NCBI GenBank assembly: GCA_016183815.1
Contig: JACPDW010000007.1
Location: forward strand, 124,001-188,000
Reading direction: 5' to 3'
From: Flavobacteriia bacterium
GTDB lineage: Bacteria > Bacteroidota > Bacteroidia > Flavobacteriales_D > Crocinitomicaceae
Length of the DNA stretch: 64,000 nucleotides
Shown: in pieces, positions 15,893 through 49,319 of the stretch
Layout: each line of letters starts with the position of its first letter
How positions within the stretch are numbered: the first letter of the stretch is position 1
Position numbers and translations under genes: made by a program
The notes under the pieces: model-generated
What the model saw: the letters and a program-made list of their open reading frames with translations, nothing else
Database searches by the model: none
What the model was told of the DNA's origin: nothing

Positions 15893-18800
15893 TTAAAATT
15901 TAAGTCCTACAATGAAGAAATTATTTGGGTAAAGGTCAAATTTAATACTTTTTTCTGTAAAAGTTTTGAGAAGTATTAATTGTTCATTTATTGAACTGTT
16001 TTTATTTTCTTTAAAAAAACTGATTAATTTTGGCATATCAACTTTTTTATTTTCTTTAAAATTTTGACCATTAAAAAATCCTCCTGAAATTAAAATCATA
16101 TATTCTGTTTTATGAAATTTCAACTCATAGGTGTGGTACTTTGAAAAAGTAGCGTGTGGAAGCTCAAAAAGTCTTTTTGTTTCGCCTTTCTGTACAATGA
16201 TATCACCACTTCTATTACTTAAAAATTGTCCTCCGGCAGTTGAATATTTAATGTTTTTATTTTTTTTATCAAATTGAATGATTTGAATTTCTAGTTCCAA
16301 TTTGTTTTTCAAAATATAATCAAGGGTTAAATAATGAATACATTTTTTTTCCAATTCAATTAAAATATTTCCAGAATCTTCTACTTTTTCAGTTTGTATA
16401 ATTTGATTTAAAAAACCACAAATCAATGCTGAAACAAAACTCGATTGAATAGGTGAATTTACAAAACTACAAATTGACATATAAACCGTTGAAAAAGTTT
16501 TTTCTATGTGATAAAAATCAGACATTATTTCACTCTGATTAAAAAGAATTTTTTCAAATTGTTCAAATTCTGCTTGATAAACTTCTTCATTATTTTTGTG
16601 AACAGTAATTAACTCTTTTAAACTGTTTTGTAAAATGTTATATTTTTTTTGCAACTGATTGTTTCTTTCCAACAAATAAAAATCTGAACTTAAATCTTTT
16701 GCTCTACATAAAAACTTTTTTATATGTTTTGTGTTTTCTTCTTCAAAAATCAAATGACTATTTAACTCAATTAACTTTTTTTCGCCATTTTTATCAATAC
16801 AAAAAACCTCTTTAGTTGTTTCTAAAGTCTTCTCTTTAAATTGTTTTTCATAAAAAGACTTGATAGATTCTTTTTCGTTTGGCATTAATAACATAAATGA
16901 GCTTATTTTGTTCGTTTGTTCATTAAATCCAAAGAATTTTTTAAAAAAAGAGTTGCTATTTATTATATTTCCATAAATATCGACTTCAAAAACAAGTTCA
17001 TTTTTACTTTCATATAATAAAGTGTTTTGTTTTTCTGCAATTATTTGTTTACTAATGTTTTGTCCTAATAACACATGTTGATTTTTATTAATTCTATAAA
17101 TTGTCCACTCAATCCATATCAGTTTGTTTAGTTTTGTTTGAAAAGCGACTATAATTTTTTTATTTTCAATTATATTTTGATTAAAGATCTGCGACTCATT
17201 GCTTTTTTTATCAATAAATTGATTCAATTCTGAGATGGATGAATTAAATAAATTGATGGATTTATTTCCTAATAAAGCAATAAAACTTTCACTCAAAAAT
17301 TTGATTTTAAATCTATCATCAAATGAAAAAGCAAAAAACTTACCTTTATTAATTAAAAAAGTCACAAATAAAAGTTTGTGTAATGATTCATTTCTTATAT
17401 ATGTGCTAAAAATTGATATACAAAGTGATACAATAACTGCAAGTAAAAATAGTATTTTATCATAAAAAGTATTCTCCAAAAGATAAACAAAACTGCAACT
17501 TATGATGATTTGCAAAGAACTAAAAATTATTAATTCGCTCAAATTTTTTATTGCTAATGGAATTATTGCAGAACAAAGACAAAGTATAATTAAATAATAG
17601 GGGTGTATGTTTGATATATATAAACATAAATAAGCATGAATAATCACTAAATACACCGCTATTTTTAAACTATTATTTTTTATGTTTTTCCATGGGTGGT
17701 GGACAAAAGACAAACCACATAAAAGTAACAACAAAAAGGATAAAAAAGCATTAAGTGTATAATTGTTAATAATCGTTTTATCCAAATTTGAACTAAAATA
17801 ATAAATAAATGTGGTTGAAATCCAACCGAATAATAAAAATAAAGTACGGGTTAGGTTTGATATTTCAACATCATAAACTTCAACGTTTTTTAAAAAAGTA
17901 AAAGATTTTGTTTTGTCTAAAAAATATAAATTTACAAAGGCCACCACCAAAATAATTAGAATTAAAAACCAATTACTTTTCCAAAAAGGCAAGTTGTTTT
18001 TAATAATTAATGAAGATATTTCGCTAAAATGAACGCCATCATAACTAGATTTTACTTCAAAAATATAATCTTTGTCATTTAAATTAGTTAAAAATATTTC
18101 GTTTTCTTTGGATAAAGAAGTCCAATTTTCAACTTTACCTTTTAAACGATAAGAATATTTTACTCCTTTAAATTTGGGATTTACGGAAACAAAATGGAGT
18201 TGAATCAACTCTTCCTCTCCTTTTGAATCTTTGGCATTTTTTAATTTATTAATTGAAATTAAAGGTGGAGGTGGGACAAAAGACAATGAAAATATTTTTG
18301 GATTTATCATATATAACCCTTCAATAGTTCCAATAAAGATTAAATCATTACTTTGAAAAGAGGACCGCATGTGTGTTTCATAACCATCAAATCCATTTTC
18401 TTTTGAGTATTGAACAGAGTATTCAATTTCACCCAAATTATTAATTTTTATTCTATTTAATCCTTTGTTTGTTCCTAACCAAAGGTGGCCCGTTTTATCT
18501 GAATTTAATGTATAAAAAAGATTTGAATTAAATAAATTATTGTCTTTATAAAATTTATATTTCTCTTCTTTTGAAATAAAAATCAAACTTTTACCAGAAC
18601 TAAACCAATAGTTGTTAAACTTGTCTTTTACAGAAACCCCAGAATAACCTCTTGGATATTTTGTGATTTTTTTTAATTGAATAATACTATTGTCATTTAT
18701 AGAGTAAACAAACAATCCAATGTTAGAGCCAAAATATATTTTATTTTTAAAGGGGTTGAATTGAGCAGTATAAAAATGGGAAGCAATTCCAGATTCAACT

Positions 18801-20107
18801 ATGTGTTTAGTTTTATTTTTGCTAAACTCGTAAAGTCCTTTTCCATCAATACAATAAAAAAGTTTGTCATTTACAGAAAATATAAATATGACTTTTTCTT
18901 TGATGTTTAAAAAAGGTTTAAAAACGCCTTTTTCATAAAAAACAAGACCATGATTGCTAGCAAATATAATTTTGTTTTGATAAGTACATTGGCCATAAAT
19001 TCTTAATGAAAAAGTTGTAAAACTTTTATTTCTAAAAGTTCCTGTATAAGTTTTTCCATTAAAATCACTAATAAACACCTCATTTTTTTCATTCCTATAA
19101 ATAAAAGAAATTAAAGGATTTTGATAAACAGAATGAAGTTGAATTTTTGAAATTGGTTCTTGTGATATTTTTATTAAACCCAAATTTGAACTACACGCCC
19201 AAAAATCATCATTTTTATCAATAAAAACAGAATTAATATTCAGATTTTTTTCTTTATAATTTATTGGTATTTGTGTTAATTTTTGTTCTTTAATGTAAAA
19301 AAAATGATTTAATGAATCAACAAGAATCAATTTGTCATTTTTAATAAAAACGGATTTAATGCTTTCCATTTTTGGGTGTAAAAAATTAGACACCCGAATT
19401 TGACTTTTTTCTTTGTATTTATCTATTTTAATAGAATATTTTTTGTTTGTTTTTGGGTCGTAAAAATGTAAAGCTTCATTATCTTTAGAAATAAAAGAAA
19501 AACGCACCTTTTTATCAACCTCCAACCAAGTATTTAATGTGTGAATTTTATTGTTAAAAACAACAAGTGCTTCTTGATCAAACAAAATAAAAAGATGAGA
19601 TTGATGTTCAACAATTTGAATTGGAGCTTTTGAAATTGAATTTTTGAAATTGTATGTTGAAATGATTTTGTCTTGATTACATAATCTAATTCCTAAATTT
19701 CCTATTAAAACATAATTATTTTCAAACGGAATAATGGAATAAAACTCTCCTAAATAATCAACAGGAAATTCAATTCTTTGATACTTGTTTTTTGAAAACT
19801 TGTAATATCCAGCATATCTAGATGAAAAATAAATATCATTTTTTTTAATTGAAATGTTACTTACATGATGTTCGTCTTGACCTCCAATATTTTTTGGTGT
19901 AATAAATTGAATGCCATCAAATTTTTGTATTCCAGCTCCTTCTGTTCCAACCCATAAATATCCATTTTCATCTTGTTCTATTGAACTGATATCAGACAAA
20001 TTGAGACCTTGTTTGTGATTAAAATTTTGAAATGTAAATAATTGGGAAAACAAATAGGTATTTAAACCAAAATAAAAAAACAAAAATATTAAAAGATATT
20101 TCAACAT
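15893..20107 (-). CDS. Propeller/membrane/PAS sensor with a degenerate SpoIIE-like phosphatase domain
   Basis: A 1404-residue envelope sensor. After a signal sequence (1-21) come repeats of the two-component-regulator propeller type (YLWVGTEGAGIQKFDG near 50; HLWLGTNKGLNRI near 545) and a Y_Y_Y-like beta domain. Then about eight transmembrane helices (roughly 710-920), two PAS-like segments, a coiled coil and a C-terminal PP2C/SpoIIE-like domain from about 1180. In active relatives the last domain has GDFYW, DCTGHG, SDG and DD. Here I read SDFYH (1196-1200), CSFVNS (1213-1218), SGG (1341-1343) and NN (1395-1396), so most metal-binding aspartates are missing. I infer a non-catalytic signalling output. 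First gene of the leftward run. Confidence 0.75.
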   Translation of the reverse strand: MLKYLLIFLFFYFGLNTYLFSQLFTFQNFNHKQGLNLSDISSIEQDENGYLWVGTEGAGIQKFDGIQFITPKNIGGQDEHHVSNISIKKNDIYFSSRYAGYYKFSKNKYQRIEFPVDYLGEFYSIIPFENNYVLIGNLGIRLCNQDKIISTYNFKNSISKAPIQIVEHQSHLFILFDQEALVVFNNKIHTLNTWLEVDKKVRFSFISKDNEALHFYDPKTNKKYSIKIDKYKEKSQIRVSNFLHPKMESIKSVFIKNDKLILVDSLNHFFYIKEQKLTQIPINYKEKNLNINSVFIDKNDDFWACSSNLGLIKISQEPISKIQLHSVYQNPLISFIYRNEKNEVFISDFNGKTYTGTFRNKSFTTFSLRIYGQCTYQNKIIFASNHGLVFYEKGVFKPFLNIKEKVIFIFSVNDKLFYCIDGKGLYEFSKNKTKHIVESGIASHFYTAQFNPFKNKIYFGSNIGLFVYSINDNSIIQLKKITKYPRGYSGVSVKDKFNNYWFSSGKSLIFISKEEKYKFYKDNNLFNSNLFYTLNSDKTGHLWLGTNKGLNRIKINNLGEIEYSVQYSKENGFDGYETHMRSSFQSNDLIFIGTIEGLYMINPKIFSLSFVPPPPLISINKLKNAKDSKGEEELIQLHFVSVNPKFKGVKYSYRLKGKVENWTSLSKENEIFLTNLNDKDYIFEVKSSYDGVHFSEISSLIIKNNLPFWKSNWFLILIILVVAFVNLYFLDKTKSFTFLKNVEVYDVEISNLTRTLFLLFGWISTTFIYYFSSNLDKTIINNYTLNAFLSFLLLLLCGLSFVHHPWKNIKNNSLKIAVYLVIIHAYLCLYISNIHPYYLIILCLCSAIIPLAIKNLSELIIFSSLQIIISCSFVYLLENTFYDKILFLLAVIVSLCISIFSTYIRNESLHKLLFVTFLINKGKFFAFSFDDRFKIKFLSESFIALLGNKSINLFNSSISELNQFIDKKSNESQIFNQNIIENKKIIVAFQTKLNKLIWIEWTIYRINKNQHVLLGQNISKQIIAEKQNTLLYESKNELVFEVDIYGNIINSNSFFKKFFGFNEQTNKISSFMLLMPNEKESIKSFYEKQFKEKTLETTKEVFCIDKNGEKKLIELNSHLIFEEENTKHIKKFLCRAKDLSSDFYLLERNNQLQKKYNILQNSLKELITVHKNNEEVYQAEFEQFEKILFNQSEIMSDFYHIEKTFSTVYMSICSFVNSPIQSSFVSALICGFLNQIIQTEKVEDSGNILIELEKKCIHYLTLDYILKNKLELEIQIIQFDKKNKNIKYSTAGGQFLSNRSGDIIVQKGETKRLFELPHATFSKYHTYELKFHKTEYMILISGGFFNGQNFKENKKVDMPKLISFFKENKNSSINEQLILLKTFTEKSIKFDLYPNNFFIVGLKF

Positions 20108-48490: not shown

Positions 48491-48910
48491 TTAAGAAGAA
48501 AAAAGTTGTAGGTATTCATTTTCCTTATTTCGCATTATGTGTTGATCAACCTTTGTTTTGTCTTTATATCCACAACAATGCAAAAGTCCGTGTAAACAAA
48601 CACGATAAAATTCGATTAAAATGGGCACTTTGTATTTTTTTGCGTTTTCAATTATTCTATCTGTACTTATATACATTTCAAGGTTTAAATTGCTATTGTT
48701 AGAATAATCAAAAGTTATAATGTCGGTATAATAATCGTGATTTAGATGTTCTTTATTAATTTTTAAAAGTCCCTCATCCGAACACAAATAGATAATCAAA
48801 TTGGAAATGTTTTTTCCTTCTTTATTTGCTAAGAATCGAAGATTGTTATAAAGTAATTTCTTTTTAAATTTATAAGAAAAATCAGCGTCGAGTTGCTGAA
48901 CTTTAAGCAT
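48491..48910 (-). CDS. ybeY: Endoribonuclease YbeY (rRNA maturation)
   Basis: A 139-residue metalloprotein for 16S rRNA 3'-end maturation. The motif reads HGLLHCCGYKD; the first two zinc histidines are kept, while the third position, a histidine in the HGxLHxxGYDH form, is aspartate, as I recall for Bacteroidota relatives. The upstream EMYISTDRI strand and HDYYTDIITF block fit the family. The frame extends to TTG at 48949, inside the ATPase gene; ATG at 48910 overlaps that gene by 8 bp and is preferred. Confidence 0.88.
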   Translation of the reverse strand: MLKVQQLDADFSYKFKKKLLYNNLRFLANKEGKNISNLIIYLCSDEGLLKINKEHLNHDYYTDIITFDYSNNSNLNLEMYISTDRIIENAKKYKVPILIEFYRVCLHGLLHCCGYKDKTKVDQHIMRNKENEYLQLFSS

Positions 48911-49319
48911 AGTTAAAGAATATTTTTGTGGTTTTTCCTTGGTTTTCAAAAATCAACTCATCAGATAAATTTCTTATTAAAAAAATTCCTCTTCCATTTT
49001 CCTTTTCAATGTTTTCAGGTGAGGTTGGGTCTGGTATGTTGTTGAAATTAAAACCCTCTCCTTTATCATATACACTAAATCCAATTCTTGATCCGTTATC
49101 AGTAACTTCAATTAGTACAGGAGACTCTTTGACAAAACAATTTCCATGAATTATAGCATTATTAACCGCTTCTGTTACTGCTATTAAAATATTTCCATAA
49201 ATTTCTTCATTGATTTTTAGTTTATCACAAACTCTGTCGATTAAAGACTCAACTAAAGAAATGTTTTTTAATTCTGATGGGATCTCAAGTGTTTCTATTG
49301 TATTGGATTCTGCAATCAT
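48903..49319 (-). CDS. RsbW-like ATP-binding protein (anti-sigma-type HATPase)
   Basis: A 138-residue stand-alone GHKL domain. ILIAVTEAVNNAIIHGN is the N-box, DKGEGFNF the G1-like motif and NGRGIFLIRNL the G2 lid. The RsbW/SpoIIAB family phosphorylates an STAS anti-anti-sigma protein or binds a sigma factor. No STAS gene or SpoIIE phosphatase is adjacent. It sits between DUF4175 and ybeY with an 8-bp overlap to ybeY, a gene order I believe is conserved in flavobacteria. The partner is unknown. Confidence 0.85.
   Translation of the reverse strand: MIAESNTIETLEIPSELKNISLVESLIDRVCDKLKINEEIYGNILIAVTEAVNNAIIHGNCFVKESPVLIEVTDNGSRIGFSVYDKGEGFNFNNIPDPTSPENIEKENGRGIFLIRNLSDELIFENQGKTTKIFFNYA

Follow-up and report, generated by a model that had tools for sequence, protein, structure and literature searches.

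Does a receptor whose SpoIIE-type output domain has lost the aspartates of its metal site still act as a phosphatase and, if not, what has become of its output? This question is raised by a gene in a 64,000-nucleotide stretch of the Flavobacteriia bacterium assembly GCA_016183815.1 (JACPDW010000007.1, positions 124,001 to 188,000), hereafter the window, which is contig C13 of the 3.24-Mb genome. The gene, at 15893-20107 on the minus strand, encodes a sensor of 1404 aa; an initial annotation had given these coordinates and this length exactly, and had proposed a pseudophosphatase that binds a partner. As judged by comparison with its orthologues, the enzyme is very probably dead, i.e. a pseudophosphatase, and only one aspartate of the metal site is left.

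The metal site in the window protein and its relatives

Orthologues were searched in 240 genomes of the family with a threshold of E <= 1e-40. Matches were obtained in 65 of them, including the genome of the window (64 of the 239 others), and in four of the five genomes of the genus, again counting its own. The output domain was readable in 62 other genomes, corresponding to 63 orthologous loci (G004 is split over two contigs), and in two genomes, G100 and G166, the match lies entirely beyond this domain. Orthologues are 24-38% identical to the sensor across most of its length, and in the two that were scanned with Pfam (L019 and L022) the Reg_prop, Y_Y_Y-like, PAS and SpoIIE domains occur in the same order as in the sensor. 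One search returned 59 relatives and no long match beyond the family; a viral scan gave no relative and PHROGs no family (0). A scan of genome contigs gave one locus, L017, of different architecture and with an intact SpoIIE domain.

Asp is present at the positions equivalent to 1197 and 1214 in all orthologous loci (63/63 for each), at 1342 in 60 of the 61 loci reaching it, and at both 1395 and 1396 in 61/61. The remaining locus at 1342, L076, carries an Asn; TNG replaces S/T-DG and the other metal residues are retained. At the same five positions, the window protein reads D, S, G, N and N. CSFVNS from 1213, SGG from 1341, NN at 1395-1396 and Asp1197 all lie where the initial annotation had placed them. 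Its statement that only the first block keeps an Asp was borne out, the orthologue alignment offering no substitute acid in the metal site. Glu1273 is the only other acid retained in the metal region (E in 54 and D in 8 of 62 loci). The last strand aligns gap-free through to the C-terminus, leaving no need for a shift that would place Asp1391 in the metal site. An alternative alignment rescuing the site was rejected on the basis of this collinearity and because no acid replaces 1214, 1342 or 1395-1396. Among the family genomes with a readable domain, metal-site loss is confined to the window protein, apart from the single Asn of L076.

Of the 16 other SpoIIE domains encoded in the genome of the window protein, 15 retain every aspartate; the remaining one, on contig C22, stops short of the DD motif. 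The latter belongs to a 710-aa SpoIIE sensor (L173:1093-3222, at ~84.1-86.2 kb) ending in ...GPDSLKFRTGR; it adjoins an intact tandem neighbour, and mutually similar stretches are found in the translated DNA alongside.

The metal sites of two relatives have been described. In SiaA, according to passages of PMC7647112, M1 and M2 are coordinated by three aspartates plus a carbonyl and M3 by D600, with D604 and D534 nearby. For SpoIIE, an extract of PMC5468089 gives D628, D746, D795 and the carbonyl of G629 as metal ligands. At the SiaA positions (numbers derived from the alignment, with an offset of 362), the window protein has D for D457, S for D474, G for D600, N for D604, NN for DD and E1273 for D534. 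The D604 position varies among orthologues, with D in 51 and K in 10 of 61.

Retention of Asp1197 and Glu1273, together with that of the predicted fold (see below), could suggest a domain that remains enzymatic, either through a rearranged metal site or by catalysing a different reaction. However, the CTGHG stretch and three of the four acidic positions now consist of S, G, N and non-acidic residues, and the alignment contains no compensating acid. We consider a surviving enzyme extremely improbable. An output domain without its metal site would be expected to have no phosphatase activity, and the loss of this site, from which the initial annotation had derived its pseudophosphatase, is strongly supported at the sequence level: the orthologues keep the aspartates, the window protein is without them.

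Fold, descent and uneven conservation of the receptor

Of the parts that had been claimed, propeller repeats and a PAS domain were recovered. Reg_prop matches the sensor with E 4.6e-10, Y_Y_Y scores slightly below the Pfam cut-off, and PAS, weak by Pfam, is recognised as sensory_box by NCBIfam (E 3.6e-8, at 1029-1126). A membrane part was found as well; the eight helices attributed to it were unconfirmed, about six separate strong hydropathy peaks being observed between 712 and 903. Pfam SpoIIE (PF07228) was unlisted for the sensor up to E 10, a search in which HMMER filters discard most weak matches. PF07228 matches 16 other places in the same genome and the sensor's domain is not among them. 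The orthologue profile recognised this domain with 97 bits (E 1.9e-30). Searched alone against the PDB with phmmer, the window domain gave nothing related (best E 3.7); the 22 orthologous domains gave SiaA at E 3.5e-43.

An AlphaFold2 model of the window domain, built from an alignment that included 12 SpoIIE homologues, had a predicted local distance difference test (pLDDT) of 70.5 and a predicted template modelling score (pTM) of 0.74. Its best structural match is SiaA-PP2C (6k4e_B; Z 22.1, root-mean-square deviation 3.6, 219 residues aligned), followed by Rv1364c, SpoIIE and RssB; TAB1 chains are also among the matches (Z 14.3). This modelling, which the initial annotation had proposed, predicts with middling confidence that a SiaA-like PPM fold is retained in the window domain. 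The accompanying claim that the fold signature is otherwise kept proved half right, as 31 of the 47 conserved domain columns are altered.

When the tree is built from the sensor and membrane half, the window protein groups with its three congeners (support 100). The window domain, placed in a tree with the 16 other places of its genome, also groups with congeners (support 96/93), with an own branch of 6.7 under a mixture model, and it still contains the congener motif SKY[NH][TS]Y. Domain replacement by recombination with a paralogue was rejected in view of this grouping and of the motif; the very long branch carries some risk of artefact. The gene was inherited vertically from a SiaA-type SpoIIE receptor, descent from the SpoIIE/PPM family being supported by the orthologue profile and the congener clade. 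Close to it lie a LiaF-like gene, purE and gcvP, with no SiaB/SiaC neighbourhood. It shares further neighbours with its orthologues: among twelve compared loci, hand-picked and not random, obg and a PAP2-like gene are near the orthologue in 9, whereas the LiaF-like gene and purE are each found there in 2.

A column was next scored as conserved when at least 90% of 56 other rows agreed. L076 and the partial rows L093-L097 were omitted from column counts, trees and drift simulations, and L098 was taken as the end of L020. The propeller part keeps 55/61 conserved columns (57, 58 and 57 of 61 in the three congeners) and the membrane part 9/9. The first and second PAS regions keep 7/15 and 6/20, the output domain 16/47 (44/47, 45/47 and 42/49 in the congeners) and the linker 0/12 (12/12, 12/12 and 11/12), the alignment of the latter carrying a short gap beside the motif and being the least certain part. 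Pairwise identity to the congeners is 37-41% for the propeller, compared to 41-54% among the congeners themselves, and 21-26% for the output domain, compared to 45-57%. Path lengths to the outgroup row L022 are 2.38 versus 2.11-2.27 in congeners for the sensor and membrane half, and 5.13 versus 1.56-1.86 for residues 1026-1404. Beside the active site, DQFGG is altered to NGQNF; the following NKK is kept and overlies, in the alignment, the predicted SiaC-contact residues G611/F612 of SiaA. The proposal that the substrate-docking loop was fully lost was softened in view of this NKK. At conserved columns, the sensor and membrane half are kept as in congeners, and the PAS regions and linker are eroded along with the active site (Table 1).

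Table 1. The sensor gene and its parts, in window coordinates
Feature	Position	Strand	Basis and remarks
Whole sensor gene	15893..20107	-	1404 aa; open frame, no internal stop
Propeller repeats (Reg_prop) and Y_Y_Y-like domain, residues 20-705	17993..20050	-	Pfam; 55/61 conserved columns kept
Membrane part, residues 706-915	17363..17992	-	Hydropathy peaks 712-903; 9/9 conserved columns kept
Two PAS-like regions, eroded, residues 916-1140	16688..17362	-	sensory_box 1029-1126; 7/15 and 6/20 conserved columns kept
Linker ahead of phosphatase domain, residues 1141-1180, conserved motif lost	16568..16687	-	0/12 conserved columns kept
SpoIIE/PPM-derived domain, residues 1181-1404 (last 224)	15896..16567	-	Orthologue profile, predicted fold; 16/47 conserved columns kept
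Asp1197, sole metal-site Asp retained	16517..16519	-	Residue reading and orthologue alignment
CSFVNS (residues 1213-1218), replaces xDCTGH	16454..16471	-	Residue reading and orthologue alignment
SGG (residues 1341-1343), replaces S/T-D-G	16079..16087	-	Residue reading and orthologue alignment
NN (residues 1395-1396), replaces DD	15920..15925	-	Residue reading and orthologue alignment

Constraint on the domain was assessed by simulations in which a congener domain drifted randomly, stops being forbidden; drift ended once the distance to the outgroup, or to L019, equalled that of the window domain (200 runs each). These simulations are simple, relying on a single substitution model and beginning from a present-day congener, and give an indication rather than proof. 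Stop codons were met in all 400 runs, at least 7 in one set and at least 10 in the other; an open frame would thus not have survived drift without constraint. Hydrophobic core columns amounted to 53/61 in the window domain, with run means of 46.8 (3/200 as high) and 44.6 (0/200). Conserved active-site polar columns amounted to 7/26, and values as low or lower were found in 32/200 and 106/200 runs. Taken together, these results suggest constraint on the core and the frame but not on the active site.

The cytoplasmic part has a long end branch (2.9 versus 0.34-0.79 in congeners), as does the domain in the mixture-model tree. This could reflect decay of the gene, the whole receptor being lost and its output end having gone first by chance. 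Nevertheless, the gene consists of 1404 codons without stop or frameshift, its outer half keeps the conserved columns given above, and third-position guanine-plus-cytosine content is similar in both halves (0.172 and 0.178). We therefore regard decay as quite improbable.

Alternatively, the sensor may be kept and the output idle. The outer half would then have its own job, be it to bind a ligand, to support another envelope process or to serve as a damping copy within a receptor complex. The inner half would be baggage that is tolerated and drifts, weakly constrained. Although the frame is open to the last codon, core hydrophobicity is above nearly all simulations and the PAS region is still recognised as sensory_box, the PAS regions, the linker and all cytoplasmic parts erode together, and the active-site polar columns do no better than neutral drift. 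Moreover, G001, of the same genus, is without an orthologue and has 1 SpoIIE domain compared to 12-16 in the other four genomes, so such sensors are dispensable. Idle output is the main alternative, but on balance an unlikely one.

Possible action by protein contact and candidate partners

We favour, with a confidence slightly above even, a non-catalytic membrane receptor in which a folded, metal-free PPM domain would act through protein contact, like RssB; both the continued function and the contact mechanism are what we infer. The ancestor was a SiaA-type SpoIIE receptor composed of a propeller sensor, a membrane part, PAS, a linker and a PPM phosphatase. In the lineage of the window protein, the output domain lost its metal site and the conserved linker, with the sensor and membrane half remaining under ordinary constraint, and the metal-free PPM domain may now serve as adaptor, scaffold or decoy. 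More tentatively, and with somewhat less than an even chance, the protein could be a transmembrane receptor signalling non-enzymatically via its pseudo-PPM domain. It would then be the counterpart of RssB at the membrane, derived by conversion of a SiaA-type phosphatase to a contact module in one species, the sensor being unchanged.

Several observations weigh against action by contact. In related phosphatases the linker relays or switches signals, according to passages of PMC12143880. Here it is without its conserved residues, so the usual coupling of sensor to domain is doubtful, and this is the strongest point against ordinary signalling via the domain. The fold model is of middling confidence, and its 12 other aligned SpoIIE homologues read DC[TS]GHG, favouring this fold. 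Identity of the membrane part to the congeners is 35-41%, versus 55-60% among congeners; it is intermediate, and the outer half is thus not wholly untouched. The 91.1 profile bits of the window domain are far under those of the congeners (283-285) and within the range of the neutral set matched to outgroup identity (mean 70.6, maximum 108.7), the other set having a mean of 41.8 and a maximum of 76.5. In earlier drift runs, 0/200 and 0/200 reached 91.1 bits at 26% identity to the start, and the means at 50% were 99.6 and 104.8; profile bits do not decide on selection. Finally, no partner was found. That the protein pairs via its linker with an active paralogue, as a heterodimer, was judged less likely, the linker motif being lost in a part where the alignment is least certain.

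SiaC is the substrate of SiaA, an active Mg/Mn phosphatase, as stated in passages of PMC7647112. Since SiaA is the nearest solved relative of the orthologous domains, the ancestral target would more likely be SiaC than STAS. The same genome contains 3 SiaC places and 3 DUF6272 places, DUF6272 being what we take to be the SiaB kinase family. On contig C29, a 1227-aa PAS-GAF-SpoIIE sensor (L171:619-5331) is followed by DUF6272 and then SiaC on one strand, a candidate SiaA-SiaB-SiaC set. Two STAS places were also detected, as was one HATPase_c_2 above the cut-off, at 48903-49319 of the window. This RsbW-like gene overlaps the next small open reading frame (48491-48949), after which comes another gene, presumably mnmG-like. 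No link of the sensor gene to the STAS/HATPase_c_2 or SiaC/DUF6272 sets was found in the genome. The suggestion of the initial annotation that the domain binds a partner, STAS in particular, gained no support: the conserved linker is gone, DQFGG is altered and the 2 STAS places are unlinked to the gene.

Relation to known PPM phosphatases and pseudophosphatases

SpoIIE-type receptor architecture alone is no proof of phosphatase activity. Because one lineage lost catalysis, close relatives kept it and the sensor is still conserved, the putative change from enzyme to contact module is open to direct comparison between congeners. Pseudoenzymes of the PPM fold are discussed as intermediates towards new functions in an extract of PMC5468089. 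In the portions of the literature covered by our search, no account of an inactive SpoIIE receptor of this kind was found, and the bacterial PPM pseudoenzyme met there is the soluble RssB.

SiaA of Pseudomonas aeruginosa (PDB 6k4e) is the best match of both the orthologous domains and the predicted window fold. SiaA is active and its metal aspartates are present, whereas the window domain keeps only the D457 equivalent; the sensor part of SiaA is, we assume, not of the propeller kind. The orthologous propeller-PAS-SpoIIE receptors of the family share the domain order of the window protein but retain DCTGHG, S/T-DG and DD.

RssB of Escherichia coli has a PPM fold without active-site residues and is an adaptor without phosphatase activity (passages of PMC5468089 and PMC7226468). 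The window domain resembles it in this lack of active-site residues on a PPM fold, here a predicted one, and RssB chains are among its best fold matches. In contrast to the window protein, for which an adaptor role is only proposed, RssB is a soluble response regulator of a separate lineage, acting as adaptor for sigma-S and ClpXP. TAB1, a eukaryotic PP2C pseudophosphatase with an inactive PP2C fold, works by binding (extract of PMC13358185); it differs from the window protein by its eukaryotic origin, its other partners and an independent loss. The window domain combines PPM descent with the absence of metal-binding residues, as do pseudophosphatases of the RssB/TAB1 kind. PPM pseudophosphatases are thus already known, and the membrane receptor is a variant of that kind.

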